From Aeromonas tecta (GTDB lineage: Bacteria; Pseudomonadota; Gammaproteobacteria; Enterobacterales; Aeromonadaceae), in NCBI RefSeq assembly GCF_000820185.1, contig NZ_CDCA01000009.1, forward strand, positions 27,896-91,895: 64,000 bases of DNA, given 5' to 3'. The position numbers and the translations under genes were made by a program. Within the stretch, counting starts at the first letter, position 1. Every line of letters starts with the position of its first letter. Below, in pieces: positions 31,735 through 47,782 of this stretch. The notes under the pieces were generated by a model. That model was given only the letters and a program-made list of their open reading frames with translations. It did no database searches and was not told the origin of the DNA.

Positions 31735-32265
31735 GGCGCGCTCCTGCGGCAGGTAATGGCACACCCTAGCACATTCCGGCGGTACATCTCTTATGCAATC
31801 GTCGCCTTGCCACCGAAAGTGCAGCTTGAGTGCCATTTCCCATCCTGTTCTCGCTCTTTCATGGGTAGTTTCATGCGGCTTGTTGCTGATGAGAGTCACG
31901 ACTCTGCAGAGAGCGGGCTGATGCTGTACCGGGCCAGGTCATCGATGAGGTGAGCCTGGGGCGGGTGCCGAGTGTGCTTTGTCACGGCTGCGAGTCGTTT
32001 GGTGGATGAGCTCATCGGGTGGAGCCGTTGTTCGGACGAGCAAAGGTGTGGCGGCGCCGTGGATGAACTTTCCAGATAGTCTGAACTCGGCCTCAGCAGT
32101 CGATTTTGGCCGGGAATTTTGAGGCTGGATCATGGTGGGAGGTTAGGGGTATGCTGGTATCAGTGCGATCCAAGATCGTCACTGCAAGCGTACTGAGACC
32201 TATGATTCGGCTGACACGCTGGAACCCCGGTTCCAACTGTCTGGGTAACATTTTGGAGTCTGATG
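31735..32265. other. Intergenic region without a recognisable gene
   Basis: 530 bp. I see no open frame with a ribosome site, no repeat and no tRNA-like structure. Promoters for the leftward YjbD-like gene and the rightward small gene at 32266 are presumably here. Confidence 0.4.
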
Positions 32266-32388
32266 ATGAGTAACAAAGAACAGCATCACGGCAAAGATGC
32301 CAAGAAAAAACCGCAGATGTCACTGAAAGAGAAGCGTGATGCTAAACGGCAGAAAGCCGACCTGAAAAATGGCAGCGCGATTAAGTAA
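32266..32388 (+). CDS. 40-residue Lys-rich small protein
   Basis: The frame starts MSNKEQHHGKDAKKKPQMSL and ends NGSAIK. GGAG lies 7 bp before the ATG at 32266, and an intrinsic terminator begins about 37 bp after the stop. It is highly basic and hydrophilic, with about a quarter lysine, and has no cysteine or aromatic core, so it is probably disordered or nucleic-acid associated. The ribosome site, codon pattern and terminator together argue for a genuine gene. Function is unknown. Confidence 0.65.
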   Translation: MSNKEQHHGKDAKKKPQMSLKEKRDAKRQKADLKNGSAIK

Positions 32389-32424
32389 CGCTCCTCCTGC
32401 TGTAGTTCCTTCGGAGCCAGTATC

Positions 32425-32452
32425 AAGCCAGCCTGTCATGGGCTGGCTTTTA
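32425..32452 (+). terminator. Terminator after the 40-residue gene
   Basis: Arms AGCCAGCC and GGCTGGCT with a TGTCAT loop are followed by TTTATG. It overlaps the 3' end of the convergent SBP_bac_3 gene. Confidence 0.75.
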
Positions 32453-33206
32453 TGTTTTTGGCCGATGAGGTTGCCCCATAGGCGGCGAAGATCCGCTCAT
32501 AGCGTCCATCTTGTTTCATTCGTGTGAGCTGGCGATCGAACCAGCGCTGCTGCGTGGCCTGACGGAAGGCAAAGTGATAGTGAGTGGGGGCGAATAGCTC
32601 GGACTGCCTGATCTGGGCGGGGGCATAGCGTCCCGCGTTCTGTTCATCCTCGATCTGCTCCGCCAGATAGTAGTAAAACACCCTCTGTTCCAGGATGACG
32701 GCATCCGTTCGCCCCAGTAATAGCTTCTGCACTTGACCCTCTTGTCTCGCGACTTCTTCGTAGCGAGGGTTGTGATCGGCCATGCTGGTGAACTCATTCC
32801 CCAAGATCTGGCGCGCTCGCTGGAAGGCACTGACGCGTAGACCCTGCAGGTCGGCCATCCGCAGAATAGGGGGGTTGTTGATGGTAAAGATGCGGTTGTG
32901 GAAGGTGAGTACCGATTGTGACAGATAGGCATGATTGAGCATACCGGGCTTCACGTTGATGATGGCGTCCAGCTTGCCCTCTTCCAGCATGCGGAAGGTG
33001 CGCTCCAGCGGCAGGTATTTAAACTGTGGCTCGTAGCCACTGCCGGCAAAGGCTTCCCGCAGGAGATCTAGCTCGATGCCCCGCCCTTCTTGCGCTATCA
33101 CATAAGGTGGAATGGCAAAACTGACGCCCACCCGTAACGGTTCGGCGATCAGAGGGCCCATATGCAGCAACAGGAGGAGGCACAGCAGGCGGTTAAAAGA
33201 GCCCAT
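32436..33206 (-). CDS. Periplasmic amino-acid-type solute-binding protein (SBP_bac_3)
   Basis: About 256 residues from the ATG at 33206, which starts a good signal peptide (MGSFNRLLCLLLLLHMGPLIAE); the frame is open to 33248. The mature part follows the SBP_bac_3 pattern: LRVGVSFAIPPYVIAQEGRGIELDLLREAF, FKYLPLERTFRMLEEGKLDAIINV, LQGLRVSAFQRARQILG. There is no permease gene nearby. Orphan proteins of this type often act as sensors or scavengers. It is the last core-like gene before the AT-rich island. Confidence 0.82.
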   Translation of the reverse strand: MGSFNRLLCLLLLLHMGPLIAEPLRVGVSFAIPPYVIAQEGRGIELDLLREAFAGSGYEPQFKYLPLERTFRMLEEGKLDAIINVKPGMLNHAYLSQSVLTFHNRIFTINNPPILRMADLQGLRVSAFQRARQILGNEFTSMADHNPRYEEVARQEGQVQKLLLGRTDAVILEQRVFYYYLAEQIEDEQNAGRYAPAQIRQSELFAPTHYHFAFRQATQQRWFDRQLTRMKQDGRYERIFAAYGATSSAKNIKASP

Positions 33207-33611
33207 GCATGTTCTCAGATGGATGACTCGTGCCGATGATAACCGCAAGGTCTAATAAGAGAGACAGGCTCTATGCAATGGCGGTAGAAACAGTGTGGAA
33301 GGGGCGATGACTGCGTCAGAAGCAGGCAAAAAAAGGCCCTGAACAATCAGGGCCTGGCAGTTCGTCATATTGGATCAAAATGGTTCTATTCACCACAAAT
33401 GTAAGTATTTTTGTTTTATCGATAAAAATCAATTGGTTAAGTGTTGCTGTAGAAATAATGTAAACATTTTCGTTAGTTTTCATGGGTTGAATAGGTCAAA
33501 TTTTACATTTTCGAGTAGCAAGACAGAATGGACAGAGCCCTGCCTATTGTGAGCAAGCTTTTAGAAGCACTCCAACAAGGGGCTCGCTCGCCCCTTGGTA
33601 TGACAATGAAG
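33207..33611. other. Left edge of the AT-rich island
   Basis: No gene. A hairpin (AGGCCCTGA with its complement) lies at about 33338-33360. Directly after it the sequence becomes strongly AT-rich and stays so until ssb. This composition step is the best available marker of the left island boundary. No target-site duplication could be recognised by eye. Confidence 0.5.
33573..33600 (-). terminator. Hairpin downstream of the SMC-like ATPase gene
   Basis: Arms CAAGGGG and CCCCTTG around a CTCGCTCG loop lie 15 bp past the stop codon of the leftward operon. The T-run on the minus strand is weak, so termination efficiency is uncertain. Confidence 0.5.
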
Positions 33612-36600
33612 TTATTTATTATTGGAATTGTCACTTGTTACGCCTGTGGTTGGTAATCTTGGGGCGAAGTCACGTTCATTCTGTACCTGACTGACGACAC
33701 CAAAGGTCTCGAGTTGCAGAAACTTAGATCCAAAAACTTCGGTAGGAATTTTCAATTTAAGCAAATTGAAGAAGTTCTCATCATGAGTTGAGATAATAAT
33801 CTGCTTGTCAAATCGCAGCGAAATGTTTCTAAGCAAGTCTATTACTGCAAGCACATTAATTGAATCCATGGATTGAATAGGGTCATCAATAAGAATAACA
33901 TCTAGATTATTCCCTTTATCATCTTTGGCATGTAAGGCGTTGGCCAGAAAAACACTCAGACTTAAAATGTTTAGCTGTGCTGAACTAAAATATAATATTG
34001 GTGATATGAGGCCACCAGATTCATCCTTTATCACAATATTGAGCCCTGGCTGAGCACTATCAAAATCAGGGATGAAATCAACCTCTTTAAAAGAGGGATG
34101 AGGATCAATCTTGCTGTATATAGCGTTGATAAGATTAGAAAAGAAGAAAGCCCCGATTCTTTCCCGCAATTCTTTGAAGACTAGTTCACGATCAGCAGAC
34201 AATTTAGTATTGACTAATTGGTGTTCCGATATTTTTTTGTCAATATCAGAAAGTCTTTTGCGTAACTCCAAACTTTCTAAGTAAGGCTTAAAAGTCTCTA
34301 ACTGAACTATCAGCAGATCAATCTGATTGATCTTCATCGTAATGTCAGCTGATTTTTTAGATAAAGTTTGAATTGCTAGTTCAATTTTTTGCTTGATTAA
34401 AACCACATCCGGCTTTATATCTTCCTCTAGCAATCTACTTAAGCTACCCAAAAACGAGTCCACGAAGAATGTTGCATCGTTAATATTTTTTGAAATACTC
34501 TCTTTTTGAGAAACTAGCAATTGGAAATCAATCCAGTTCCCATCATCTAGCATAGTCTGTTGGAGTTCATTACACCGTGCAGACAATGTAACCATTTGAG
34601 CATAGCTTTCCTGAATGGAGCTTTCGAGATTGAGTCGCTTCTGGGCACAATATTCCAAAAGGTTATCAACATTTCGAATAACTTCCTTTTTTGCAAATGC
34701 CAAAACGGATGTATATGACTCTTTTGTTGTGATGCCATCTATAGATAAAAGTAGTACCTCAAGACGAGAGGTAATTATTTCCATCTGTGCCTGTAGGTCA
34801 GTAAGGTGCTTATTGCTCAGGTTGAGCAGCTCCTGTTGGGAGGAGCTAGTGCTAGAAAGGGCTGCTAGCTCTGTATTAACACGTGAATGCAGCTCACTTG
34901 AATTCAAGTTCCAAACTTTGACTTGTAGAGTCGCAATAGTTTGTTCTGTGATAGTAATCGTTGTGGTAAGCGAATGTAATATTTGTTGATTGGACTCAAT
35001 TCGTGAAGATAATTGATTGAGCTGAGTTTGGAGATCAATAATTCTCTTGTGAAGTCGCTCTTGGGCTTCGTTCAGAGTTGAATCAATTATGGATTTAAGC
35101 TGGCTTATGCGTGCTGCTATTTTTTCCAACTGTCTTGCGTTCTGTTTTGCAGCCTCAGTCAGGAGGTCGTTATTTCTGATCGATGATATGAGTGTATCTG
35201 AAGATGGATGATTTGCTCGACATAGAGGGCAGGTATTACTGGGCCAATCAGCTAGATAGGTCAGACCTTGTGACACTAACCGTTCAATTACTTGCTTCTG
35301 TTGCGTAAGTGCTAGTTGGGTATTTCTAATTGCAGAGTCATTTTGTAGTAATAACTCTAGCTCTTGGTGCGCAAAATAAACTTCTTGAAGGCGGGTAATC
35401 GGTAATTCGAAAAGAGTGGAGTCAGGCCCTTTCAATATTTCCATATTAACTGGAAGTACAGATAATTTCCCTAAATTTAATTTAATATTCTCTTGTTGAG
35501 CTTTGTCCATCGTGATGGAATTAAATTTCTCTTGGTATCTTGTTTTTAAAGTCTGTAGCTCATGCTGATGGATTGAAAGTTCTGAATAGGCCGCAGGGCT
35601 GTCAGTCAATACGGCTCGTAAAGCTGATGCATGACGTTCAGTCGCAGATAGAGCATCCTGACACTGTTTCACACTCGCATGGGCTGCACTTAAACTTAAA
35701 GAAATATTAGACTGCTCATTAATTAGTGTATTTCGCTCATCGGACGCGGATTTTAATTTTGACTCTTCAATAAGAAAAATTGGAGCTAATCCTTCAATAG
35801 TGGATAGCTCTGTCAGTTGCTCATTTTGTTTCTGCCATTCTTCTAAATACTTGTTATAAGTAGAAGACATTGCCTGATATCGTTGGGAATCAGCAACACC
35901 TTTTGTCAGCAAAATAAATTTGGGGGTTTGCTCAGCAACAACATCTAGTTGAAGCTGAAATTCCTCTAGACGAAATGTCAGTTCCGATAATGCAGCTTCC
36001 TCTTTCCGTGTTGCTTCGTCGCTGGATGACAACGAATGCTTTCGCTCAGTGAGTGAGCTAAGAAGACTATATTCCATATTGGAGTCGAAAGCCTCTGTGA
36101 CATACGAGATATTCTCACCATCATGGTTTAAACTTTTCGCCAATGAATTGAATTTTTCAAAAATCATTGTATCGACTGGCGCCTTCAAAAGTCTTTTGAT
36201 ATCAGTTTTTTGCTGTTTAAGGCTGTCCAAGGTTATCTTGTTTTCGGTTAGAATAGCCGTGAGCTCCATACGTAGCATCTCGTCCTCACCACCGAAATAC
36301 TGCATGAAGAGTTGATATCGTTCTTGCGGTTTTGCTTCTTTCAGAAAACGATCAATCGCATCTTGTGAGAGAATTATCTTCTCAAAACCCTTCCCTTCCG
36401 TTTTAGTCTTGGTGGGCCCCAAGTTTAGATCCATGGGTGTGTTGGACCTCAATTTTGGAAGCGATCTTGGAAAATCTCCGCATGTGGTTATTACGTCTAC
36501 CCGAGTGACAATATTATCTGGAACGTCTTTGTTACGAAGAATCTTTAATGGAATCTGATCTTGTTTTGTTCCCCGAGCGGCTCTATTATTAATTTTTTTA

Positions 36601-36803
36601 TTATGTTCTGCTGTATATCTTCCCAAATTCGAGGTAAATGCCCATTCTACTGCATCGTAAAATGAGCTTTTTCCAAATCCATTGGGAGCATATAGTGCAA
36701 TAAAATTTGAGGGTGTGCCATCACCAAGGGTAAAGTCGAAAACCCCATCTTTTTTGAACTTGTAGGCTCGAAAGCCTTCGATCTCAACTTTTTTTATTTT
36801 CAT
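33612..36803 (-). CDS. SMC/Rad50-like ABC ATPase with zinc hook (island defence operon)
   Basis: 1063 residues. The ABC head halves sit at the two ends. They carry Walker A YAPNGFGKSS (Lys45), a Q-loop region IILSQDAIDRF, signature-like YFSSAQLNILSLS, Walker B VILIDDPIQSMDS and H-loop ISTHDENFF. Two long coiled-coil arms meet at a zinc hook TCPLCRANH (Cys525-Cys528). This is a DNA-end or DNA-structure-handling machine of the Rad50/RecN/SbcC class, but no SbcD-like nuclease follows. It is the last gene of a four-gene overlapping operon. It probably provides the sensing motor for the protease and MBL effectors. Confidence 0.85.
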   Translation of the reverse strand: MKIKKVEIEGFRAYKFKKDGVFDFTLGDGTPSNFIALYAPNGFGKSSFYDAVEWAFTSNLGRYTAEHNKKINNRAARGTKQDQIPLKILRNKDVPDNIVTRVDVITTCGDFPRSLPKLRSNTPMDLNLGPTKTKTEGKGFEKIILSQDAIDRFLKEAKPQERYQLFMQYFGGEDEMLRMELTAILTENKITLDSLKQQKTDIKRLLKAPVDTMIFEKFNSLAKSLNHDGENISYVTEAFDSNMEYSLLSSLTERKHSLSSSDEATRKEEAALSELTFRLEEFQLQLDVVAEQTPKFILLTKGVADSQRYQAMSSTYNKYLEEWQKQNEQLTELSTIEGLAPIFLIEESKLKSASDERNTLINEQSNISLSLSAAHASVKQCQDALSATERHASALRAVLTDSPAAYSELSIHQHELQTLKTRYQEKFNSITMDKAQQENIKLNLGKLSVLPVNMEILKGPDSTLFELPITRLQEVYFAHQELELLLQNDSAIRNTQLALTQQKQVIERLVSQGLTYLADWPSNTCPLCRANHPSSDTLISSIRNNDLLTEAAKQNARQLEKIAARISQLKSIIDSTLNEAQERLHKRIIDLQTQLNQLSSRIESNQQILHSLTTTITITEQTIATLQVKVWNLNSSELHSRVNTELAALSSTSSSQQELLNLSNKHLTDLQAQMEIITSRLEVLLLSIDGITTKESYTSVLAFAKKEVIRNVDNLLEYCAQKRLNLESSIQESYAQMVTLSARCNELQQTMLDDGNWIDFQLLVSQKESISKNINDATFFVDSFLGSLSRLLEEDIKPDVVLIKQKIELAIQTLSKKSADITMKINQIDLLIVQLETFKPYLESLELRKRLSDIDKKISEHQLVNTKLSADRELVFKELRERIGAFFFSNLINAIYSKIDPHPSFKEVDFIPDFDSAQPGLNIVIKDESGGLISPILYFSSAQLNILSLSVFLANALHAKDDKGNNLDVILIDDPIQSMDSINVLAVIDLLRNISLRFDKQIIISTHDENFFNLLKLKIPTEVFGSKFLQLETFGVVSQVQNERDFAPRLPTTGVTSDNSNNK

Positions 36804-37335
36804 TTTGCCTATAGTACTCTATTAGTTTATTAACAATCTCGCCTCTTTTATCTTTCGACTTGCTTGTCAAGTCAGTAGGCGTGTTTTTTATTAGTGGTGC
36901 AATGGCAAGTTTTATATTTGAAACTAGAGAGGGAGTCGTTTGTTGTAACTCTAGATCCGCACCAAGTAGTTCGGCATTAATCTTGGTTTCGACTTCTTTA
37001 GTTGTTAACGTCTTTCCAAGACGATCTAGGACAATTTTTCTAGCTGCATAACGATCATTTTCAATTACATATTTGTCTTGGATCTCTATCGAATCTGGGC
37101 ATAGCATTACCAGATATATATTCCATTTGGAGAAGCGGGCTTCAGGCTTGAACCTAACAGAAATTATGCTCTGGATTGCCTTCCATTTTTCCACTAATTC
37201 AAGTGAGGAATCAAACCAACAGACTATACAATTTATGAAGCTCAGCTCCTTAGCGGAAAACAGCTCGACTTTCAAACCCTCGAATTCAGATGTTAAAAAA
37301 TCTAGATCATGATCTGTCTTTGATAGCGCGATCAT
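36784..37335 (-). CDS. Small middle-component-like protein of the defence operon
   Basis: 183 residues, soluble, with no motif of known catalysis. The stretch FSKWNIYLVMLCPDSIEIQDKYVIENDRYAARKIVLD is followed by a helical C-terminus. Position and size match the 'middle component' of ABC three-component (ABC-3C) conflict systems, which bridges the ABC ATPase and effectors; this is inference from architecture. It overlaps the protease gene by 29 bp and the ATPase gene by 20 bp. The start at 37335 has an AAGGGA site inside the upstream gene. Confidence 0.7.
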   Translation of the reverse strand: MIALSKTDHDLDFLTSEFEGLKVELFSAKELSFINCIVCWFDSSLELVEKWKAIQSIISVRFKPEARFSKWNIYLVMLCPDSIEIQDKYVIENDRYAARKIVLDRLGKTLTTKEVETKINAELLGADLELQQTTPSLVSNIKLAIAPLIKNTPTDLTSKSKDKRGEIVNKLIEYYRQNENKKS

Positions 37336-38590
37336 AATGTCCCTTGAAAATTATCAGTTGTTGGCCAGACAAAGCCTCTCCATACTCTCTGTGCTTGTCC
37401 AGTACGAGTTTATTACGCAAACCTTTTAGGTGTGCGAAAGCATACGTTTTTAAACTATCACCAAAGGCGCTATCGATCCGAGCCCTCTCTCTATATTGAG
37501 GTGATGAAGCAATATCATCGAGTACTTCTTGGATATCTTCAGAACCTGGCATGTCGGAGGCGTTTTCTTGCGGCGTATTTACAAGAATAGTGCCATGGGC
37601 ATCTAGCATTTCTCTAGCAGCCTTTATTAGATCTGATAGTTTCCACAACCAATTGTCATTGCTACAGGAATACATAAATCGAAATCTACGATCCAGCGAA
37701 CTTAGATAATTCATATCGATGACGTCTACACCATCGAGTATTGAACAAATTACTGAAAATTCAAGATAAGCGACCCAGAGATCTCTTTCCAAGATTGTCG
37801 AATCTGGTTCTTTATTGCCTAGCAGCAGCTCTCGCTTATAACGCATCATCAAGTCATAAGGTGCAGGCATATTTTTTTCTATTAGCCATGCGGCTTGTTC
37901 GTTAAGTTTTTCCCGTAGTAGAACAATATTTTTTGGCTTTGCTGCATTGAAACTAAAAATATCATTTTTAAAATTTGAGAAGCCTTGCATGTAAAAAGGA
38001 GTCATCTGTGTTAGATGATTTTCTTCTATAATCTGATCGAAACATTCAATGGAACAGCAACGAATTCGACCATATCGAGCTTCGGGATCTTCGTCATCCA
38101 TTCGAGTTTCCACACCCCATAAATGTGGATGGCCTTGTTGGATACAATAGACGCCACCACCTGACATACCTTGAATGGACTCCTGGCCTGGGCTGTTCTC
38201 CAAATTACACACAATAAGTTGGTTAGCCTTATCATTTGAAGTGCCAATATAAATTTTATGCGGCCTATCTGAGCCAATATTTGACCTAGGAAAACCCACA
38301 TATGAGATTCTGGAGCCAGCGGCCTGCTCTCCCCGCCATATATGCTGTGAAATAGAATTCTGATACTCTACTTTTATGATCGAACAATCATGTACTGGAT
38401 GATGATAAGGTGTTCCAATAATTGTTAACTCTATGCCATTGCGACTGACAATAATTGGGGTGTCAGGGTCATTTATAACGTGATGCGCAGTCAAAACGTA
38501 AGTAAAGTCCAGTGACAAGGTACTTACTAGCACCCCGCTGCCATTATTGACTTTAACGGCGTACGAAATAATCAAATCGTCATTGGTCAT
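37307..38590 (-). CDS. Trypsin-like serine protease of the defence operon
   Basis: 427 residues. The N-terminal ~190 residues form a chymotrypsin-fold protease with an apparently complete triad: His37 in LTAHHVI, Asp68 in VHDCSII and Ser143 in GMSGGGVY. The C-terminal ~230 residues are helical, unrecognised, and could contact the other components. There is no signal peptide, so it acts in the cytoplasm. The start ATG overlaps the MBL stop by 11 bp without its own obvious ribosome site, implying translational coupling. A cytosolic trypsin-like protease next to an MBL enzyme also occurs in type I AVAST systems. Confidence 0.85.
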   Translation of the reverse strand: MTNDDLIISYAVKVNNGSGVLVSTLSLDFTYVLTAHHVINDPDTPIIVSRNGIELTIIGTPYHHPVHDCSIIKVEYQNSISQHIWRGEQAAGSRISYVGFPRSNIGSDRPHKIYIGTSNDKANQLIVCNLENSPGQESIQGMSGGGVYCIQQGHPHLWGVETRMDDEDPEARYGRIRCCSIECFDQIIEENHLTQMTPFYMQGFSNFKNDIFSFNAAKPKNIVLLREKLNEQAAWLIEKNMPAPYDLMMRYKRELLLGNKEPDSTILERDLWVAYLEFSVICSILDGVDVIDMNYLSSLDRRFRFMYSCSNDNWLWKLSDLIKAAREMLDAHGTILVNTPQENASDMPGSEDIQEVLDDIASSPQYRERARIDSAFGDSLKTYAFAHLKGLRNKLVLDKHREYGEALSGQQLIIFKGHYDRAIKDRS

Positions 38591-39638
38591 TAAAAATAAA
38601 CTCTTTGTCTAGTTCTAATAAGCGCCCTGGATAGACATATTTTTCGTGAGGCAAGCGTAGTTCTTGAATGATTTTCTTATAATTAAAATATATGTTGGAA
38701 TCTGTCTTTGTTAAAATCCTAGCTATGGTTTTTTTATTTGGTAGGCCGTGAATTGCACCGTTGGTTGATATTACGTATCGATTACATTCAACTAATTCAA
38801 GAAAATCGATACTCGTATTGTACTGGCTTCCATGATGTGAAACCTTGACTAGGTCTAAGGGTAATTTAGATTCGGGGCTATAGCCTAAGGCACGTAATCC
38901 AGAAACTACAACTCCATCATGGGCATCACCCAAAAAGAGCATTGTAGAGTTGCCCGCTGTAAGAATGAATGCGATGGAGCTTCCATTGGCGATAGATGAA
39001 TCAGACACGAATGTGTCATTGTTCAAAATCTCTTCAAAAGAGAATTGGTAGTCGGTTGCAACGGAGGTTTCTGCCGGATTTTTTTCCTTAGGCCAGATAC
39101 ATAGAAGTTTTTTAAGGGTTGCCTCATTAGGAGAGAGCACCTTGAAAGTAAAAGGGCCGCGCTCTATCGTCTGACCAGACAGAATCAATGGCTCACGGTG
39201 GCAACCTACTTCATCCAAGACAGATTCAAGGGACTTAGCTTGTTGCACACTAGTATTTGGTGAGACGGTTCCTAGGAGAACGCTGTTCTCAGGGATATCT
39301 GGTTTGCTGAAGTAGTCAGTGATCAGCCTTGAGGAATTGAACCATATAGACTTGACCATCTCATTCAGATAACCCGTCGCCTTAAATGCATTCAAGAATC
39401 CACCAATGTGATCGTCGTCGATATGGGTCAGGATAGCTAAATCAATACATTGGTCTCTTTCTTTCAATTCATCTAGAACGACACAAAGAGCACCTTTATG
39501 TTTCTGTGCTGTTCCCCACTTGAAAGTAGCTGAGTTTCCGCCATCGATCAGTAGGTTAAACACACCATCCGAGTCTTCATGAGTGACGAGGATGCAGTCG
39601 CCATGATTGGCTGAAAGTATGCGTACCTTAATGCTCAT
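38580..39638 (-). CDS. ComEC/Rec2-type metallo-beta-lactamase-fold hydrolase of the defence operon
   Basis: 352 residues with the MBL motifs LTHIDDDHIGG (His72, Asp74, Asp76, His77), FLGDAHDG and VSHHGSQYN. This is the pattern of the soluble ComEC C-terminal domain family, many of which are nucleases or phosphodiesterases. The N-terminus MSIKVRILSANHGDCILV is typical of that family, and there is no membrane segment. It is the first gene of the four-gene operon, with AGGGAG upstream and a promoter candidate at 39695-39723. The substrate is not readable from the sequence; a nucleic acid or nucleotide is likely. Confidence 0.87.
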   Translation of the reverse strand: MSIKVRILSANHGDCILVTHEDSDGVFNLLIDGGNSATFKWGTAQKHKGALCVVLDELKERDQCIDLAILTHIDDDHIGGFLNAFKATGYLNEMVKSIWFNSSRLITDYFSKPDIPENSVLLGTVSPNTSVQQAKSLESVLDEVGCHREPLILSGQTIERGPFTFKVLSPNEATLKKLLCIWPKEKNPAETSVATDYQFSFEEILNNDTFVSDSSIANGSSIAFILTAGNSTMLFLGDAHDGVVVSGLRALGYSPESKLPLDLVKVSHHGSQYNTSIDFLELVECNRYVISTNGAIHGLPNKKTIARILTKTDSNIYFNYKKIIQELRLPHEKYVYPGRLLELDKEFIFNDQ

Positions 39639-39694
39639 TCAGGCTCCCTATACCCCCTGCTCCAAGGTAGAAAATCTTTATCTATACGGTCAAT

Positions 39695-39723
39695 AAGATA
39701 GCGCTTCTAAGAACATTTTCCAA
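39695..39723 (-). promoter_or_regulatory. Candidate promoter of the MBL-protease-ATPase operon
   Basis: On the minus strand, TTGGAA and TATCTT are separated by 17 bp, about 57 bp upstream of the MBL start. The rest of 39639-39937 contains no gene. Confidence 0.5.
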
Positions 39724-39937
39724 GAACTCTAGCTCTCAATATCAAGAGCGAATCGCCCCGGCCTTCCTAGGCACTTTTGAATCATTCCTAATGCGATTTT
39801 TCATACACTACTAGCGATAGTACGTTGTTGAAATTGACCATCGCCTACGGCCCCCATTGAGTGGATTGCAAACGCATAGTTTCCACTAGTTGGTGGCATG
39901 GTTCACTTTTCATGGAAGGGTGTATGAAGCTATACGC

Positions 39938-40258
39938 TCAACCCATGTTGGAAAGAAGGCGCCTCATTTCATCTTCTGGACTGTACTGCTTACAGGGTTC
40001 TTGTGATTTCTTCAATATATGATTTATTTTTCTGGTCATACTGATATGCGAAGAATCGAAGTCTTGTTGGCATCGGTCTAAAGCCCGCTCAATTGCAACT
40101 TGAGCTAGGAATAATTCATTGCCCTGTAAAACATCATTAGATTTTTTTATGGCACCTTTGTACATAGTATCTAGGGTATCTTCACTTTTGGCTCGTTTGA
40201 AGCGGATGAGCATGTTTTCATAAGTAAAATACTGCATGTCATCGATATTTTTTGTCAT
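39938..40258 (-). CDS. Small soluble protein of unknown function (island)
   Basis: 106 residues, charged and helical (MTKNIDDMQYFTYENMLIRF; VAIERALDRCQQDFD; INHILKKSQEP). AAGGAC lies 6 bp before the ATG, and codon use is AT-rich like the neighbouring cargo. It reads in the same direction as the defence operon, 300 bp upstream of it. It could be an island regulator or a separate cargo gene; no family is recognised. Confidence 0.6.
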   Translation of the reverse strand: MTKNIDDMQYFTYENMLIRFKRAKSEDTLDTMYKGAIKKSNDVLQGNELFLAQVAIERALDRCQQDFDSSHISMTRKINHILKKSQEPCKQYSPEDEMRRLLSNMG

Positions 40259-41467
40259 GTGTTTGTCCTTATGTGAAGGAAGAAATGAACATAGTGCTAT
40301 TGTCTAAATAACGGTACTTGAATGGAGTCCAGTCAGATAGAAGGACATGGAAGCATGGTATCCCGGTAACGATACGGTGTTGGTCATACGGAAGGGATGA
40401 GTCATTGAAGCACTCCTCCGTATATCACTGGAGCTCTCAGACAGAAGCGGCCATGTGTCGATCTAAACAATTCATAACCGGGAGGCGGGGTTTGCGTCTC
40501 GACAACGCCAGCTGGGTGAGACCATGACGTATGTGCGTGTTATTTGTTCAACAACCCACAGACTCCCTACAGTATGCTCAAGAAGAGACTGAAATTCATC
40601 CCCGAGGAAGACATCTAGCATAGCGTAAACAAGACTCTGGTTTGAGGCCAGTTTCAGGTAATAACTATGTACGCGCCATGGCACCGCTCTGATATCGCTT
40701 TGATATCGCTTTGATATCGCTTTGATATCGCTTTGATATCACTTTGATATCGCTTTGATATCACTTTGATATCGCTTTGATATCGCTCTGATATCGCTCT
40801 GATATCGCTCTGATATCGCTCTGATATCGATTTGATATCGCTCTGATATCGCTCTGATATCACTTTGATATCTCTGGTAATGCTGCCACACCTCCGGCGC
40901 AAGCTGGGAACTATCTATGTCGATAGAGCCTATAATGGCTTTCTAAAGTTCCCCAATGTGGTGCTTAAGCTTCACGGTCAGCGTTCGGCGGGCAGATTGG
41001 GCCGTTGCCCCCTGCCTGAGGTCGAGCTGGTCGGCTCGAATGTCTGCTCGGCCCAGCCCGAGACAAACAGTCAGCTCTATGGGCCGAATCCACGATAGGC
41101 CGTTAGCTTGCCAGTGATGCCACTCCCTAGTTTGAGACGGTCAGCCAGATGCTCATCAATCGCAGCTGCCCTGCATAGGGGATGAAATCGCCCGTGAATG
41201 AGATCTCCGGCCCGATCACTGTCTCAACCAACGGGTAACTACCAGGTGCATTGCCCCAGATTCCCAAGACACTTTCGCGCATCATGTAGCCTAATAAGCC
41301 CCAATGAGAAATACCACAAGATCATGAACTTTGAATGGTAGTACTATGGGAACACCCAAAGTTCACGGTTATCTACGGAGAATGATAAAGTGAACTGAGA
41401 TTTCTTCTCATAAGACATTTCTATGGCTATTTTTAAGACTACTTCTTGAAAGAAGGGCATGATAATA
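40259..41467. other. 1.2-kb gene-poor stretch with repeats and coding remnants
   Basis: It contains the 11-bp repeat array (40685-40878) and mosaic sequence. A plus frame at 40865-41098 begins with a transposase-like LPHLRRKLGTIYVDRAYNG before losing sense. A 52-codon minus frame lies at 41127-41285 (reading VIGPEISFTGDFIPYAGQL). Both look like fragments of former genes. A 9-bp inverted repeat TGAACTTTG/CAAAGTTCA (41325-41333 and 41357-41365) sits about 100 bp before the antitoxin-like gene and might be its operator. Confidence 0.5.
40685..40878. repeat. Seventeen-copy 11-bp tandem repeat (GATATC-containing)
   Basis: GATATC recurs at 40691 and every 11 bp up to 40867 (17 copies), with unit GATATCGCTTT or GATATCGCTCT. 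Because 11 is not a multiple of three and no stop arises, all frames stay open, creating a spurious 11-residue peptide repeat. It is close to one helical turn per unit. It could be a protein-binding iteron array or a slipped-strand minisatellite. Confidence 0.92.
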
Positions 41468-41920
41468 ATGGCTTATTTGACATATCACCCTAGTCAACAA
41501 CATCCTTCCAATAATCGACTTGTCATGTCTCTAGACATTCCGAGCGACCCATTGGGTGTCCATTTATGGATCGTTGCAGGTATTTCACCTGACATTATAA
41601 TTCAGCTCGTTGAATCAGTCGGGTCTGACATTAAGGCTATTTGTCATCTGGCTGGGATTAGCCAAAGTACCGTAAACCGAAAACTCAAGAATGGAACTCC
41701 TCTAACCCTTGAACAAGGAACTAGGATATACAGCGTCATACAAGTACTTGATGCAGTAATCTCGCTACACGATGGTGATCTTGCTATGGCAATGTCTTGG
41801 TTAGATTGTCCTGCAAAAGGACTGAGAGGTGAGAAACCTGTGAACGTCTTGACTACAGCAATTGGTGTCCAAGCCGTAGTCGATCTCATTGGTCGGATCG
41901 AACATGGAGTCATTTCCTGA
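41468..41920 (+). CDS. Orphan Xre/MbcA/ParS-type antitoxin-like protein
   Basis: About 150 residues. An HTH (IKAICHLAGISQSTVNRKLKNG) is followed by a DUF2384-like C-terminus (AMSWLDCPAKGLRGEKPVNVLTTAIGVQAVVDLIGRIEHGV), the toxin-binding part of antitoxins paired with RES-domain toxins. The usual toxin gene should follow directly, but two terminators come instead, so no partner is present. AAGGG is 10 bp before the ATG at 41468; 41459 is an alternative. It may have been kept as a regulator of the island. Confidence 0.8.
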   Translation: MAYLTYHPSQQHPSNNRLVMSLDIPSDPLGVHLWIVAGISPDIIIQLVESVGSDIKAICHLAGISQSTVNRKLKNGTPLTLEQGTRIYSVIQVLDAVISLHDGDLAMAMSWLDCPAKGLRGEKPVNVLTTAIGVQAVVDLIGRIEHGVIS

Positions 41921-41925
41921 ATTCT

Positions 41926-41945
41926 AGCCGTTCAAACGGCTTTCT
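41926..41945 (+). terminator. First hairpin after the antitoxin-like gene
   Basis: Arms AGCCGTT and AACGGCT are separated by CA and followed by TTCTG, immediately after the stop codon. Confidence 0.55.
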
Positions 41946-41990
41946 GAAGTGAGACCACTGGCAACTAAGGCTCGTTACAGAAAAACTTGG

Positions 41991-42020
41991 AAGACCTTAC
42001 ACTGTAAGGTCTTTTATAAA
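41991..42020. terminator. Terminator between the antitoxin-like and recombinase operons
   Basis: A 10-bp stem AAGACCTTAC with its complement has an ACT loop and is followed by TTATAAATTTT on the plus strand. Opposite-strand transcription from the recombinase operon also meets this hairpin. Confidence 0.75.
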
Positions 42021-42074
42021 TTTTAGCCTGGGTGCTAAGGATGCGGACAGCCCTGAATTGTCCTTTTACACTCA

Positions 42075-42485
42075 TCACGAGTATCGGTCTTGCTTCTTTG
42101 GTAGTGGAGTGTTCAATTGGGCTATCGAAATGCCATGAGCATATGCATTGTACTGCCAGATGACAAATTGACTTAATAGCTCGTTGTTCTCTCGTTTTAA
42201 ACGTATATTTTCAGCCTCAAGTCTTGCTATTTTATTTGCTGCGATAGAAAGTGAAGCTGGTGTTTTGGGGGCCTTTACATCACCATGTCTCAATTCATTT
42301 TTTTTGTCTTGAAACGATTTTTTGATTCGATGATAACTTTGAATCGTTTGTCTTGAGTGAGATAAGCCCAGTCTGGAACTCATCTGTTCACAGAGTTTTT
42401 CCCACGTTAGCTTTACATCAAAGTGCCAGCTATCAATTAGCCCTACAATCTCAGAAATGTCTTTCTCTGATAGATGTTTAGCCAC
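42075..42485 (-). CDS. gmtX: GmtX-like small accessory protein (TnpC-like)
   Basis: 136 residues, basic N-terminus and a C-terminal coiled coil (ANKIARLEAENIRLKRENNELLSQF) resembling Tn554 TnpC and the third gene of recombinase-trio elements. It has a GTG start with GGAGGA 7 bp upstream, located inside the end of the upstream gene (8-bp overlap). It is the last gene of the recombinase operon. It is likely a DNA-binding or orientation accessory to strand exchange. The gmtX name rests on size, position and general resemblance. Confidence 0.65.
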   Translation of the reverse strand: MAKHLSEKDISEIVGLIDSWHFDVKLTWEKLCEQMSSRLGLSHSRQTIQSYHRIKKSFQDKKNELRHGDVKAPKTPASLSIAANKIARLEAENIRLKRENNELLSQFVIWQYNAYAHGISIAQLNTPLPKKQDRYS

Positions 42486-44646
42486 GTTTCATTCCTCCGA
42501 GTGCCTTTAGTTTATCAAGAGCTTTCGGCCGGGTTCGCATTTGCTCTGGAGTTCCAGGATTTAATATTTTATCTTTAGATACTTCAAGTTTTGGTAAGCG
42601 TTTTTTTCCATTGATGTCTAATGCTTTATCAAGACGTGAAACTTTATCTATTGCTAATTTAATCAGAGTCCCATCAGGGATTGAATTATCTTCCAATTTT
42701 TCGATAAGTGCTTTGCAGTGTTCTATCGTAATAAGTCGCTTGTTAAGAAATGCTTCTGAGTTAACCAAACCATTATTCACGGCTTGTTGATCACCAGTTA
42801 AGAGTATTTCTTCATGCTTTAACTTATTCTTTAAGCGTTTCAGCTTTTCATCATCTCCTTTTTCACAGACTTGTTCTTCACAGTTCACGCAGTCTCGATG
42901 TTTTTCGCAAGGATTGAGTACATATGAATGGATACAGACACCAAACTCAGTTACATGTGCAGTTATATTTTCATCTGCATTGATCTCTTGCAGCGTTTCA
43001 GGAGTGACAACAACAAGTTCCGCAATGCCAAGGTTAGAGTGGCTATTATGATTTTTTGTGATTGCTCGAAGTTTTGTGTTTAATTGTTCAGGAGTCTGGT
43101 GATTATAAACACGTGTTTGCTTTGGGTCGGCTCTCCCAGACCAACGAGTTAATAGTGTGTCAGACATTCCGCCTAATTTCGCCATCGTATTTAACAGGTG
43201 GCGTAACTGATGACTGAGTACCTTCATTGATAGATAGTCATGGCGCTCAAACAACGACCGTTGATTTGTCATACCACTACTATCTTTTGTTTTCTTCTTT
43301 GTCGCAGATAAATCTTCATTTATCGTGCCAATGGTTGGCATCCAAAGCTCTGTTGTACTTGAACCTTTCATACTATGGAAAGAATTGTTCATTTGAGAAA
43401 AAAGTGCATCAGACCATTTGATTTTTATGCCATCGCCTGTCTTGAATGCGATCTGGGGAAAGCCATTTTCTTTTATTTTTTCACGTACAATTTCATTTAG
43501 CTCAACCATTGTTACTTCATAATGCTTTCTATCTATTCCATACTTCTTAAGAAGTTGATTACTTAAGGTTTGACCTTTTTTTGTTTGGAGTCCTGTTTTT
43601 ACAACGATCTCACCTTTCACTTCTACATATTCTTCAAAAAGATCTACCTCAAGGCCTAGGGCAAAGCTAACCTGTTCCCTAGTAAGCTTCTCATTTAAGG
43701 TAATACCTGCGGGACAAGGAAGAAAATTTGTTTTTTCTTCTACTGATTGAGCAAATGCCCTTGCGTCAGCAGACAGGCTTCTTAACCGTTCAACCGCTTC
43801 CTTAACGATGTCCCACATACATTCAGGCACCCATTCAACTTCGAAACCATATCCTTTCCCTGAAAACCAACGGAGGCCGAGTTGTTTTTTACCTTTTGCA
43901 TCTTTTGCGACCTCGATGCAATCAGCCTTCAAATAAAATAGCTCAGACCCTCGTGCTGGTGCTGCCATTAAAAGCGCAATGCAAGCCGTGGTAAATATAT
44001 CCCGTGATGAGAGGTTGTTTTCTCCAAGGGAAAATATTTCAGCAATAGCCACTAAGGCATCATCATTTGGAAGTTTTTTATCACGATATTGTTTACCTTT
44101 CTCTCCAACTTTTTCAAGCGCATCCTCTCCTCTCTTGACAGGGTTTTTCCATGTGAATCTTTTAACTATTCTCTTCTCACAAAGAAAGCGGCTCATAACT
44201 TCAAGCTCTATACCGCAATGATACGCTGCTTGAGGAGCATAATTTTCACGAGCGAGTTGAGCTGCGTTATCCAAGATGGCAGGGTTTACTTGAGTTATAT
44301 CTACTGAGCCATGCGCTCGCAACATAGCCAGTTCAATAACACGCAGTGCTTTTGATTCATTTTTGGGTTTTGTGGGTGCATGGCTCTGTTGATAGGTGAA
44401 GTATGCTTTAGCAAAAGGCATGATTGAGTCATCAAGTTCAAATTCCTTTCCCCGTTTTCTTGCATTCACTCCCAGCTTGGTGAAATTAACAACACCAGTC
44501 CAGTATGCAGAGTCGTAGCAATATTCTTCTTGAGAACTCTTAATTGGAGGCAAGTGAGGATATGACTCGCACAACTCGATAAAGTCAGCTAGATTCTGTT
44601 TATGTTCAAACTCATACTTTGGTTTGAAATTAATTAGTTCAGACAT
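42478..44646 (-). CDS. Large tyrosine-recombinase-like protein (probable GmtZ-type integrase)
   Basis: 722 residues. Catalytic-domain motifs are readable: Arg in AAPARGSELFYL, HQLRH (LSHQLRHLLNTMAKLGG), Trp in LTRWSGRADPKQ and the Tyr nucleophile in RVYNHQ. This gives an R-H-R-W-Y set like Flp-type variants. A Cys-rich patch (CEKHRDCVNCEEQVCEKGD) follows, possibly zinc-binding, then a helical tail. It overlaps both adjacent genes by 8 bp. Within GMT elements it is most likely the GmtZ integrase, but the assignment between this and the 541-residue protein is uncertain. Confidence 0.75.
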   Translation of the reverse strand: MSELINFKPKYEFEHKQNLADFIELCESYPHLPPIKSSQEEYCYDSAYWTGVVNFTKLGVNARKRGKEFELDDSIMPFAKAYFTYQQSHAPTKPKNESKALRVIELAMLRAHGSVDITQVNPAILDNAAQLARENYAPQAAYHCGIELEVMSRFLCEKRIVKRFTWKNPVKRGEDALEKVGEKGKQYRDKKLPNDDALVAIAEIFSLGENNLSSRDIFTTACIALLMAAPARGSELFYLKADCIEVAKDAKGKKQLGLRWFSGKGYGFEVEWVPECMWDIVKEAVERLRSLSADARAFAQSVEEKTNFLPCPAGITLNEKLTREQVSFALGLEVDLFEEYVEVKGEIVVKTGLQTKKGQTLSNQLLKKYGIDRKHYEVTMVELNEIVREKIKENGFPQIAFKTGDGIKIKWSDALFSQMNNSFHSMKGSSTTELWMPTIGTINEDLSATKKKTKDSSGMTNQRSLFERHDYLSMKVLSHQLRHLLNTMAKLGGMSDTLLTRWSGRADPKQTRVYNHQTPEQLNTKLRAITKNHNSHSNLGIAELVVVTPETLQEINADENITAHVTEFGVCIHSYVLNPCEKHRDCVNCEEQVCEKGDDEKLKRLKNKLKHEEILLTGDQQAVNNGLVNSEAFLNKRLITIEHCKALIEKLEDNSIPDGTLIKLAIDKVSRLDKALDINGKKRLPKLEVSKDKILNPGTPEQMRTRPKALDKLKALGGMKRG

Positions 44647-46264
44647 ATTCCAGCTCCTTTTTATTACACTCCAGTATTACTTGCATGACGGCATAAATTG
44701 CGCGGTCATTAACTGCGGCTACAGTGAGGTCATTGGTTATCTGTGCGATCCGATCTCGCTCATTAACGAGCCAGTTTAATACCAAATGATGCGGTGCATG
44801 ACGCCACGGCCGAAATTTTGGGCAGATATAGCAGGCTACAGGAGCATTATCGAAGCACGGGGAGTTGGTGCCACACGAACCAATATCTCCGCTAACCTCA
44901 CGGCAAGGAATGCGCGTAGCATCTGGAGATTGAGACTGTGCTTCGGCTTCATCTTCAACTACTTTCCCCGTAAACGCATTAGCGTATTTAACCAATTGAG
45001 GACTCATAATATCACTGATTTTTTGTGCAAATTCAGGAATGTTTTTTATGTAAACATCAGCATGCTGTGTATCAGAGTGATCGAGAAGTGTTGCCACTGT
45101 TATTAAGCCACAATGCTCTTTAGCTGCCCTTGTTCCAAGGGTATATCGGAAACGATATGCGTTAGCATGAAGTTTTTGACCTGTACGCTCGGAAGTAATG
45201 TCAAGCTTGTCGATTGTGAACTTCAGGACAGCATTTAAGTAAGAAGATGCACAATGGAACATGTCCGTCTTTTTAAGAATTGATAATAAATCGGCATCAT
45301 CAACATCACAAATATTAGGTAAATGTTTATATTCAAAATAAGGGTATTGATAACTTAATAGTTCTTCAATGCGCCTAGTGTTTCCGAAGCCCATAGGGAA
45401 AAGTGGAAGTTCAAGCCTCTCTTCATCACTTAATATATGTCCAACAAGGCATTCGGCATCAGCGATGACATTCTGCTTATGCTTCATAAGCACTTGCCCA
45501 ATGCTCTCAATAAACGCAGCCCTCCGGAAGGATGAACGAAAACCGAACCCTCTCTGCTTTGCACGTGGAATGTTTAGGTAATAATAAATTTCACCAAGTG
45601 GTGATACATCTGTTTTTATGTCCTTAATTTTGAGTGATGCTATTTGAATAGGGCGTCGCCCTGATGCAGAAAACAGCTGAACTATTGAGTATTCTTCATC
45701 TGTGACTCGGCCTTCAGCGTATGCATGATCTAAACCTGCAATAATTGCTTCATGTTCGAGGTCTGAGAACGGTCCATCAATAGGGTCAAATGATGCGACA
45801 GGTAATCCTTTGTCTCGCCCTTTAAAACGCCACTTATTTATTAGTTCTAATGTATTTTTGTCGATGATATTAAAACCCCAAAAATCTGCCTGTCTAATAA
45901 ATGCGCGCAGAGAGGACGGTTTATCATGATCATTCTTATCAGGAAATGCCATTTTGAATGCTAGTAAACCTAATTCACTAAAGGTCGTATGTTTTGTGAC
46001 TCTTGTGTATTTTATGAGCATTTCACATAGGGAATTAACGTACCAAGAAGATTTATTTTCAGAAAAATAAACTAAAGCTCCCCTGATTTCTTCCGCTATA
46101 TTTTTATCATAACCGGATAAAGCAAACCCTACTCGTACTTTAACCTCACGGTTCAATCGCCAATATTCATCATATATATCGAATTCATAACCATTGAAGG
46201 ACGTTGTTTTCGAAACCTCCTTGAGTTGTGCTAATTTTCTATCTTGAAAAGTTATTTTTTTCAT
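44639..46264 (-). CDS. Second tyrosine-recombinase-like protein (possibly VPA1269-type)
   Basis: 541 residues. It has Arg in SASGRRPIQIASLKI, a YRFRYTLGTRAA block aligned with the usual HxLRH (so the first His is replaced by Tyr), and LLDHSDTQHADVYI carrying the final His and Tyr. The C-terminus has a Cys-rich segment (CREVSGDIGSCGTNSPC...CYICPKF). The altered catalytic His suggests reduced or partner-dependent activity, as in heteromeric recombinase trios. AGAGG precedes the ATG. It lies between the 441- and 722-residue recombinases on the same transcript. Confidence 0.72.
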   Translation of the reverse strand: MKKITFQDRKLAQLKEVSKTTSFNGYEFDIYDEYWRLNREVKVRVGFALSGYDKNIAEEIRGALVYFSENKSSWYVNSLCEMLIKYTRVTKHTTFSELGLLAFKMAFPDKNDHDKPSSLRAFIRQADFWGFNIIDKNTLELINKWRFKGRDKGLPVASFDPIDGPFSDLEHEAIIAGLDHAYAEGRVTDEEYSIVQLFSASGRRPIQIASLKIKDIKTDVSPLGEIYYYLNIPRAKQRGFGFRSSFRRAAFIESIGQVLMKHKQNVIADAECLVGHILSDEERLELPLFPMGFGNTRRIEELLSYQYPYFEYKHLPNICDVDDADLLSILKKTDMFHCASSYLNAVLKFTIDKLDITSERTGQKLHANAYRFRYTLGTRAAKEHCGLITVATLLDHSDTQHADVYIKNIPEFAQKISDIMSPQLVKYANAFTGKVVEDEAEAQSQSPDATRIPCREVSGDIGSCGTNSPCFDNAPVACYICPKFRPWRHAPHHLVLNWLVNERDRIAQITNDLTVAAVNDRAIYAVMQVILECNKKELEYV

Positions 46265-46300
46265 ATAACTACCTCTTCTCTCGTAGGTTTTAAAAAACCC

Positions 46301-47620
46301 TTAACAAGGGATATCTTCATCATTATTTTCGACTATACTACCTTTATTTTTAACTCTTGTTTTTTGAAGCTCCAGCCCGATCTTCATAGCTTTTTTATGT
46401 TTATATAACCTAGTGTAAAACTTTGCTGAATCTGAGCCCTCTTTCCACCCTTGCACCCAACATCTGAGCTCTTCAGATTCTTCATAAGTTATATCATCAG
46501 CCTTAATAAGTTTCTCGACAAGCTCTGAAAATCTATCATTCCATGTATGCCTTAAACCATGAGGTTTAACTTTAAAACCAACAGTATCACTAAGTTCTTT
46601 AAATATTTTATTAAAAGCAGATGACGACATTGGAGTTGCTTTATTGGCACCGTTTTGATGGCTGATAAATAAGTAAGGGCAGGTGTTAGCTCCAACAACG
46701 GAACTTCTATAATTAAGTACATATTCCTCAAACATACTAGCCAATTGTGGTGTTATTTCCACAGTACGGCTTAGAGTTTTAACTCGTGGTTGGTTCAGTC
46801 GAGGGTCATTTTTATTGTCGGGATCACGCCAGATATTTAATGTAATTCCAGAGATTCCTTGGACAAGGTCGGTCGTTTTTATATTAAGAGACTCGCCTTT
46901 ACGGCAGCCAATATCAAGTAGCAAGTTTACAATTAGTTGGTTACGAAATTTTACTGCGTTTCCTTTCCATGGATTGGTAGACGAATCGAGTCTAACAGTA
47001 TCTAGAATTTTAGCTTCTTGAGTCTCATCAAGTGATTGGAACTCACCTATTCCAGCTTTATTTTCTTGATTGTTAGCCGGTTTTGAACCTCTCTTCGCTA
47101 TCAGCCAGTTATACATCCGCTCAGATTCATCCGATTCAAACAAGCTATCAGCGAGCCACTTAATGTATTTAGCTGCTTCAGTAACATTATTATAGCCATT
47201 AGTGCTTGTTACTTCTGTGACATCGATCCTGACACCATAACGAATTTTTTCTTTTTTTAATGGCTTCAATATAGCTATATTTTCATTTTTCTTGCTAAAA
47301 GCTATATTTTTTATAGCCTCATCTAAATTTGATTTTTTTTTCTTAAGCCAGCTAGTGATTAACTCGACTTCATCACGCTTGAGCCAATCACCACGAGTAA
47401 AACGCTCTTCTAATCTAATGTTAAGATAATCACATATTTCGAGTAATAGTTTGATGGAATTGAGTTTACTTTTTATTGTGTTATACGCATCCCCGTTGTT
47501 TCGATGATGTATCGTTGAGTACAGGGTTGGGTAAGTCATAGGATGATCGCTTTCTGTATCAACCAAGACAGCCATTCGCTCTCCAGATTCATGTACAAAT
47601 TGTCTAAGTTGATATTTCAT
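46301..47620 (-). CDS. gmtY: Tyrosine recombinase (GmtY-like)
   Basis: About 439 residues from the ATG at 47620 (a TTG two codons upstream is possible). Canonical motifs: Arg in DIGCRKGESLNIKTTDL, HGLRHTW, Trp in CWVQGWKEGSDSAKFY and the nucleophile Tyr in KFYTRL. It is the first gene of a four-gene integration/excision operon and the one nearest the island end at ssb, as expected of the main recombinase of a GMT-type island. It catalyses site-specific DNA strand exchange. Confidence 0.8.
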   Translation of the reverse strand: MKYQLRQFVHESGERMAVLVDTESDHPMTYPTLYSTIHHRNNGDAYNTIKSKLNSIKLLLEICDYLNIRLEERFTRGDWLKRDEVELITSWLKKKKSNLDEAIKNIAFSKKNENIAILKPLKKEKIRYGVRIDVTEVTSTNGYNNVTEAAKYIKWLADSLFESDESERMYNWLIAKRGSKPANNQENKAGIGEFQSLDETQEAKILDTVRLDSSTNPWKGNAVKFRNQLIVNLLLDIGCRKGESLNIKTTDLVQGISGITLNIWRDPDNKNDPRLNQPRVKTLSRTVEITPQLASMFEEYVLNYRSSVVGANTCPYLFISHQNGANKATPMSSSAFNKIFKELSDTVGFKVKPHGLRHTWNDRFSELVEKLIKADDITYEESEELRCWVQGWKEGSDSAKFYTRLYKHKKAMKIGLELQKTRVKNKGSIVENNDEDIPC

Positions 47621-47675
47621 ACACAATCAAACCTTACATATATTAATGGTGTTGGATTACCAAAATAAGACTATA

Positions 47676-47718
47676 AAAAAAGCCCACAGAAATCACAATG
47701 ATTTACGGTGGGCTTTCT
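47676..47718. terminator. Hairpin between the recombinase operon promoter and ssb
   Basis: Arms AAAGCCCAC and GTGGGCTTT carry an inner AAATC/GATTT pair, with TCTTTTAG after it on the plus strand and A-runs before it, so it can end transcripts in both directions. It may shield the island from ssb readthrough. Confidence 0.6.
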
Positions 47719-47782
47719 TTTAGTTATTTGTTTTATAAGGATATTTTACTATATACCTTACAATATTACTCTATGGTGAAAC

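Follow-up and report, generated by a model that had tools for sequence, protein, structure and literature searches.

The window, a 64,000-nucleotide stretch of Aeromonas tecta contig NZ_CDCA01000009.1, carries a four-gene operon which an original prediction, made from the letters alone, had proposed to be an anti-invader system. Four open reading frames (ORFs) on the minus strand, running from position 39638 down to 33612 and encoding 352, 427, 183, and 1063 amino acids, overlap by 11, 29, and 20 bp; these positions and overlaps agree with the ORF list and are as had been described. They encode, in this order, a protein with a metallo-beta-lactamase (MBL) fold, a trypsin-fold protease, a small middle protein, and a Rad50/SMC-like ATPase. 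The coordinates of these genes, of the residues predicted to be important, and of the surrounding element are collected in Table 1.

Table 1. Features of the operon and its surroundings (window coordinates)
Feature	Position	Strand	Basis
MBL-fold pro-nuclease (putative), 352 aa, PADLOC LmuA	38580..39638	-	PDLC03854, 407 bits
Predicted gate-1 cut site T129-S130 of MBL	39249..39254	-	aligns with Ile of Hachiman-like and Avs1-like loci
Predicted gate-2 cut site T191-S192 of MBL	39063..39068	-	T in 120/120 close homologues
Trypsin-fold protease with fused ABC-3C docking domain (CTD4), 427 aa, PADLOC LmuA	37307..38590	-	PDLC03855, 395 bits
Glu161 of protease, predicted S1-pocket residue tracking gate type	38108..38110	-	rank 1 by mutual information with gate type
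LmuC / ABC-3C middle component 1 (MComp1), 183 aa	36784..37335	-	PDLC03873, 154 bits; Pfam MComp1 53.7 bits, cut-off 27.3
LmuB, Rad50/SMC-like ATPase, 1063 aa, CPLC zinc-hook motif, DDP Walker B	33612..36803	-	PDLC03865, 939 bits, residues 1-1040
Mobile element of some 14.4 kb, borders accurate to about 10 bp	33362..47782	.	between ssb terminator and ssb stop codon
Tyrosine recombinase 1, 441 aa	46301..47626	-	Phage_integrase, 45.5 bits
Tyrosine recombinase 2, 541 aa	44639..46264	-	NF041502 site-specific integrase, 508 bits, cut-off 350
Recombinase-like protein 3, 722 aa	42478..44646	-	Phage_integrase below significance (11.8 bits, E 0.21); synteny with both tyrosine recombinases in relatives
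Small protein, 136 aa, fourth gene of recombinase module	42075..42485	-	syntenic relatives in L110-L114; no significant family

The operon and its four products

The catalytic motifs which had been read from the translations proved to be intact and conserved. The MBL protein contains HIDDDH at residues 72–77, D238, and H268-H269, the protease the residues H37, D68, and S143, and the ATPase K45, CPLC at 525–528, and DDP at 973–975. Conservation was counted in sets of proteins of related loci which had been filtered by length and contained the window (36 MBL, 34 protease, and 32 ATPase rows). Residues H72, D74, D76, H77, D238, H268, and H269 of the MBL are kept in 36/36 rows, the three protease residues in 34/34, and K45, C525, and C528 of the ATPase in 32/32; the Walker B residues D973-D974-P975 (window 33879–33887) are found in 31 of the 32 rows, the remaining row having a gap there. 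The predicted structure of the MBL protein shows a ComEC-like fold with an intact metal site.

In the PADLOC profile search each of the four proteins hits a named Lamassu model, with scores between 154 and 939 bits, and the operon is therefore an already named system and not, as had been suggested, a new hybrid of AVAST and ABC-3C; its assignment to Lamassu (ABC-3C) is practically certain. The observation itself was real and its reading as a defence system right, but the system already has a name; a function against invaders is likely. The proposed union of an MBL and trypsin logic with that of ABC-3C is also upheld, and CTD4 and MComp1 are ABC-3C domains in Pfam. In Pfam the protease scores 163 bits with CTD4 (residues 178–396, cut-off 27.6) and 26.5 bits with Trypsin_2, slightly below the cut-off of 27.6. 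Foldseek gave SplA and DegS as the top matches of the protease, and a sequence search returned DegS only, as a weak match. No match was obtained by the sequence search for the third protein, which had been described as a linker; its size of 183 residues was correct, and in place of a linker it is LmuC/MComp1. A phmmer search of LmuB against the PDB matched Rad50 only. A profile built from nine LmuB sequences matched Rad50, SMC, PtuA, and other structures, with no Lamassu-named entry among the matches listed (60 of 77). Homologues on plasmids carry the NCBI annotation 'ABC-three component system'. Membership in AVAST type 1 was considered and rejected: up to E = 1 the 427 amino acid protease yields only Trypsin_2 and CTD4 in Pfam and no STAND NTPase, and the MBL protein reaches 186 bits against an Avs1a cut-off of 420.

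The operon resembles the Lamassu type which PADLOC describes as LmuA/LmuA/LmuC/LmuB, and which we take to be the one named the 'hydrolase-protease variant', in all four proteins and in gene order. The CPxC hook of its LmuB is found in many LmuB proteins according to a review (PMC10586767), which also gives a Glu-to-Gln change in Walker B as general and a length of about 650 amino acids, whereas Walker B ends in DDP here and the protein has 1063. With Hachiman HamMAB, as presented in PMC12799240, the operon shares a separate upstream MBL pro-nuclease and a trypsin domain at the N-terminus of a core defence protein. The two insertions near the active site of that pro-nuclease may have their counterpart here in two low-confidence MBL stretches with a predicted local distance difference test (pLDDT) score below 50. 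The sensor differs, being HamB in Hachiman and LmuBC here, as do the gates, which are Ile in Hachiman and Thr-Ser here. An MBL and an N-terminal trypsin domain are likewise shared with AVAST type 1 (Avs1a/Avs1b), with the difference that the protease of the window carries no STAND NTPase.

Relatives were collected as the best 80 of 122 loci from GTDB genomes and four chosen plasmid loci. An LmuB-like gene lies downstream of the MBL gene in 35 of these 84, and all four parts are present in order in 32/84 as judged by phmmer, which is more than chance, with splits or truncations in a few. Pairwise distances among the four proteins correlate with r = 0.94–0.97 (30 sets, window included), and therefore the four genes travel as a single unit. 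The claim of one operon was right. The distribution of the system is patchy: an MBL relative at E ≤ 1e-12 was found in 4/369 genomes of the class and 7/398 of the phylum (own genome counted in both), and at E ≤ 1e-6 in 1/37 genomes of the genus, which is the own genome. Scans of viral contigs yielded three and five loci, three of them on shared contigs.

Predicted gates of the MBL protein and a putative pocket residue of the protease

According to Tuck et al. (Science 2025, PMC12799240), the proteases of Hachiman and AVAST cleave their pro-nuclease at isoleucines that lie in two gating loops. In the MBL protein of the window the mapped positions are occupied by threonines, T129 and T191, and these are, with fair likelihood as judged from alignment and conservation, the sites at which the partner protease would cleave after Thr. 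Both are invariant in the close homologues (the best 120 of 1784 listed): T129 in 120/120, and T191 in 120/120 with the next residue being S in 85, A in 27, and T in 8. In the predicted model pLDDT is below 50 at residues 123–129 and at 185–187/189–193. In the branch of Lamassu loci with a long LmuB column 129 holds Thr in 31 of 36 rows, Ile in four, and Met in one; it is Ile in 15/15 Lamassu loci with a short LmuB, in 7/8 Hachiman-like, and in 8/8 Avs1-like loci. The labels Hachiman, Avs1, and short Lamassu follow gene lengths, and the groups were aligned by genomic context. PADLOC, run on two of the 15 short-Lamassu loci (L045, L065), gave Lamassu matches, and of three of the eight Hachiman-labelled loci on which it was run, L077 and L076 match HamA and L043 has no match. 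The gate positions as mapped by alignment are conserved and the residue differs, being Thr here and not isoleucine. Gate 2 repeats the gate-1 residue before S, G, A, or T in 35/36 of the long-LmuB Lamassu loci, and a repeat before a small residue is seen in 14/15 of the short-LmuB and 6/8 of the Hachiman-like loci.

This agreement of the two gates was examined in 442 MBL sequences, drawn from the window, the 84 loci, and a list of 359 proteins, of which 357 were used and two lay outside 300–450 amino acids. At 60% identity the gate-1 dipeptide recurs in gate 2 of the same protein in 87 of 161 representatives, as compared to 30.0 upon shuffling, and at 45% identity in 34/69 as compared to 11.9; none of 20000 shuffles reached the observed value in either case. 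Column 129 was the peak among the columns scanned in 96–141 at both levels, column 128 being second and 127 also enriched, and a control region of the same MBLs gave no excess (13 vs 16.0 expected; 6 vs 7.6). At 38% identity, with 29 representatives, the excess was smaller, with 10 found, 4.9 expected, and 0.8% of the shuffles reaching the observed count. In close relatives one gate is seen to drift to a nearly synonymous residue (Ile/Val, Phe/Tyr).

On the side of the protease, residue 161 shows the highest mutual information with gate type at three levels of redundancy, among 226 columns or, at the strictest level, 225. From the motif L-x-G-[IV]-x we take this residue to correspond to position 213 of chymotrypsin, a specificity determinant lining the S1 pocket. 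The scan comprised 75 rows: the window plus 74 loci in which an ORF of at least 280 amino acids lies next to the MBL gene on its downstream side and the gate is T, I, M, V, or L. Residue 161 is Glu (24) or Gln (6) where the gate is threonine, Leu (24), Ile (9), Val (5), Ala (2), Met (2), or Thr (1) where it is aliphatic, and Phe (2) where it is methionine. The single Thr161 stems from L067, which proved to be a CHAT-domain protein and not a trypsin.

In loci whose proteases were read later the same rule was kept in 13/14 and 18/19 cases, together 31/33; with non-aliphatic gates it was kept in seven of nine (Thr 5/7, Met 2/2). Glu or Gln at residue 161 never occurs with a gate other than Thr, either in the 75 rows or in both later sets. 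Left out of the first later set were L115–L117 (on the contigs of L140, L142, and L144), the duplicate L140, L142, for which residue 161 was not assigned, and 11 loci that lack a trypsin next to the MBL gene; the alignments of L126 and L143 in this set are weak. From the second set twelve duplicates of discovery loci were left out (L145, L147, L148, L156, L157, L164, L166, L167, L170, L171, L174, L175), as were three entries representing a second piece of a locus (L159, L160, L161), five loci without a called residue 161 (L173, L177, L178, L179, L184), and L162, which is unclassifiable with Lys in gate 1, Met in gate 2, and Phe in the pocket.

Proposed cascade and competing explanations

Taken as a whole, the operon is likely to be a Lamassu nuclease-protease system in which, upon sensing by the ATPase, the protease cuts the MBL loops after Thr129 and Thr191 and thereby unleashes DNA degradation. 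LmuB together with LmuC would sense invading DNA, as Lamassu work summarised in PMC10586767 suggests. LmuBC would then reorganise or release the protease, which is presumably docked via CTD4, and the activated protease would cut the MBL protein in the two predicted loops. The freed MBL nuclease could degrade DNA, an activity shown for HamM, and abortive infection may be the outcome. Oligomerisation has been proposed by Tuck et al. (PMC12799240), and the same paper describes the MBL-trypsin pair as common to AVAST, Lamassu, Hachiman, and DRT. By analogy with these systems, activation of the MBL nuclease by the partner protease is very probable.

The original prediction had regarded protease and MBL as two licensed effectors, and this part did not stand, as the sister systems described in PMC12799240 show a cascade with the protease activating the nuclease. 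An arrangement of this kind, with both enzymes freed in parallel by LmuBC, the protease digesting proteins of the cell and the MBL acting independently, would agree with that earlier view and with the review (PMC10586767), in which LmuA proteins elsewhere in Lamassu are thought to be direct effectors. It is nevertheless quite improbable: the pair moves together among unrelated sensors and the cascade has been shown in two of them (PMC12799240), and gates and protease pocket covary here. A cascade with cuts after isoleucine, as in HamM, is somewhat less improbable, though still unlikely; they would fall at Ile106 or Ile115 in loop 1 and at Ile204 in loop 2, the threonines being structural. Such cuts would fit the residue of the cuts reported in PMC12799240, which is Ile, and the retention of Ile115 in 121/121 and Ile106 in 119/121 close homologues, with Ile106 also found in 30/36 across the branch. 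Across the 36 Lamassu MBLs, however, Ile115 drops to 24/36 and Ile204 to 16/36 as compared to 31/36 for Thr129, and the exceptions to Thr129 change together with gate 2 in four of five cases. Furthermore, Ile106 lies within a predicted helix (103–110), and all three isoleucines are out of register with the reported sites in the alignment.

Shared ancestry alone, without any specificity code, might also have produced the match of gate to gate and of gate to pocket, and a number of observations favour this or otherwise weigh against cleavage at matched threonines. On trees of 89 rows, built before the second later set, the gate changed at least four times, the pocket at least four times, and the joint state five times, and therefore about three switches of gate and pocket coincide. 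By tip order these are Thr with Glu/Gln once, which maps to a single origin, and Met with Phe twice. Independent pairs, drawn on a tree from which the gate loops were excluded, gave for exact residues 18 for, 9 against, and 7 ties (p = 0.061), which is weak, and for residue classes, run after the exact test had missed p < 0.05, 13 for, 4 against, and 3 ties (p = 0.025), which is weak as well. The rule is broken by L139, whose gate 1 has Thr but whose gate 2 lacks a Thr pair and whose pocket has Val161, and by L153, with Thr in both gates and Phe161. At 38% clustering columns 128 and 139 outscore 129. Some of the later loci are near discovery loci, the MBL of L137 for instance being 89% identical, and the MBLs, not the proteases, of some (L118, L162) were in the set of 442. 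The sites were mapped by aligning relatives and by the distance of 100 residues between the two reported cuts (PMC12799240), not from the PflHamM and EpiAvs1a sequences themselves; an Ile-[SG] pair at a spacing of 98–103 occurs in 8/16 Hachiman- or Avs1-like loci, and in Avs1-like loci the gate-1 residue recurs in gate 2 in just 4/8. The main text of PMC12799240 contains no test of a Lamassu pair. Ancestry as the sole cause is nonetheless unlikely, since residue 161 outranks every other protease column scanned, the Met/Phe pairs stand at two separate places of the tree, the class-level pair test reached p = 0.025, and the agreement between gates is highest at the mapped column when sequences are clustered at 60% or 45%. 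The gate-gate match is clear in bulk and modest after removal of ancestry.

Protease cleavage at the two threonines remains the preferred reading, and it may be extended to a specificity code, for and against which the balance is about even. Both gates would carry the same residue before the cut, and a single S1-pocket residue, 161, would co-evolve with it, so that the pairs stay matched across unrelated sensors. The code would have a Thr/Glu dialect in long-LmuB Lamassu, to which the window belongs, an Ile dialect in Hachiman, AVAST, and short-LmuB Lamassu, and a Met/Phe dialect in Bacillota. If true, a sequence rule predicts the cut position of each gated nuclease and the preference of its protease, and a killing module of two enzymes is seen to preserve the fit between lock and key as it passes from sensor to sensor. 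The Lamassu branch is made directly testable, and the rule may find matched enzyme pairs in loci which are not annotated. The Thr-Ser gate prediction and the covariation of gate and pocket are the elements which appear to be new; neither was found stated among the matches listed in the literature searches, whose scope did not reach the relevant papers cited as Huang et al. ('trypsin-MBL module') and Li et al.

Strict orthogonality was considered as a reason for a gate code and found unsupported, as one genome (G801) has two Thr/Glu loci, L028 and L146.

Mobile element and other partners of MBL proteins

The operon lies in a mobile element whose flanks adjoin without insert in 5/5 genomes of the same genus chosen for comparison. 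In steps of 1 kb the content of guanine and cytosine is 36–47% inside and 52–63% outside the element. Three recombinase-like genes and a small gene adjoin ssb. Four further members of the genus (G007, G018, G032, G035) have a related module of four genes next to ssb, and the one in G032 carries AVAST type 3-like genes. A relative of the module also lies at another place of the own genome (G000:C26), next to genes which by eye resemble ars genes. As the same ssb site of a sister genome (L110:2386–9271) holds an Avs3a-like gene (1442 bits, cut-off 2800) and an Avs3b-like gene (127 bits, cut-off 200), the site appears to exchange defence cargo. A literature search on the recombinase module gave nothing pertinent among the matches listed.

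Between the module and the operon several minor features were noted. Positions 41459–41920 encode an Xre/ParS-type antitoxin (TIGR02293, 84 bits, cut-off 57) with relatives in L110, L111, and L113; of the adjacent ORFs covered by the scan, none could be recognised as its toxin. Upstream of the operon, at 40685–40872, 17 head-to-tail copies of the 11-bp unit CGCTTTGATAT are found with a 93% match, and of 114 loci only the copy in the own genome has this array. A 106 amino acid ORF at 39938–40258, upstream of the MBL gene, has no significant family match, and Rfam gave nothing at gathering threshold in window 32000–48500.

MBL proteins were also met beside other partners. The Canu caspase-nuclease loci presented in PMC12799240 have a related protease-gated MBL nuclease, with a caspase in place of the trypsin found here and a conserved glycine at the gates. 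On the plasmids of L120, L121, and L122 MBLs lie beside annotated caspases, with the gates FG/YG in L120 and FG/FG in L122, and MG without a clear partner gate in L121. In L041 (Rudanella, 9953–14018) and L042 (Spirosoma) an MBL, a 521 amino acid trypsin protein, and a 473 amino acid short prokaryotic Argonaute (pAgo) follow in turn. PADLOC was run on L041 only; the C-terminal part of its trypsin protein matches Argonaute-partner models with 214 bits, and its short pAgo matches pAgo_I with 591 bits and has no Pfam match. The main text of PMC12799240 names four systems as carriers, none of which is a nuclease-protease pair on a short Argonaute, and a search for a paper on an Argonaute-trypsin pair gave nothing pertinent among the matches listed (best 8 of 408). 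Further partners are a trypsin-NACHT/STAND-like protein in L069, the CHAT protein of L067, a trypsin with TPR (weak) in L071, and a trypsin beside an AAA_35 ATPase in L043.

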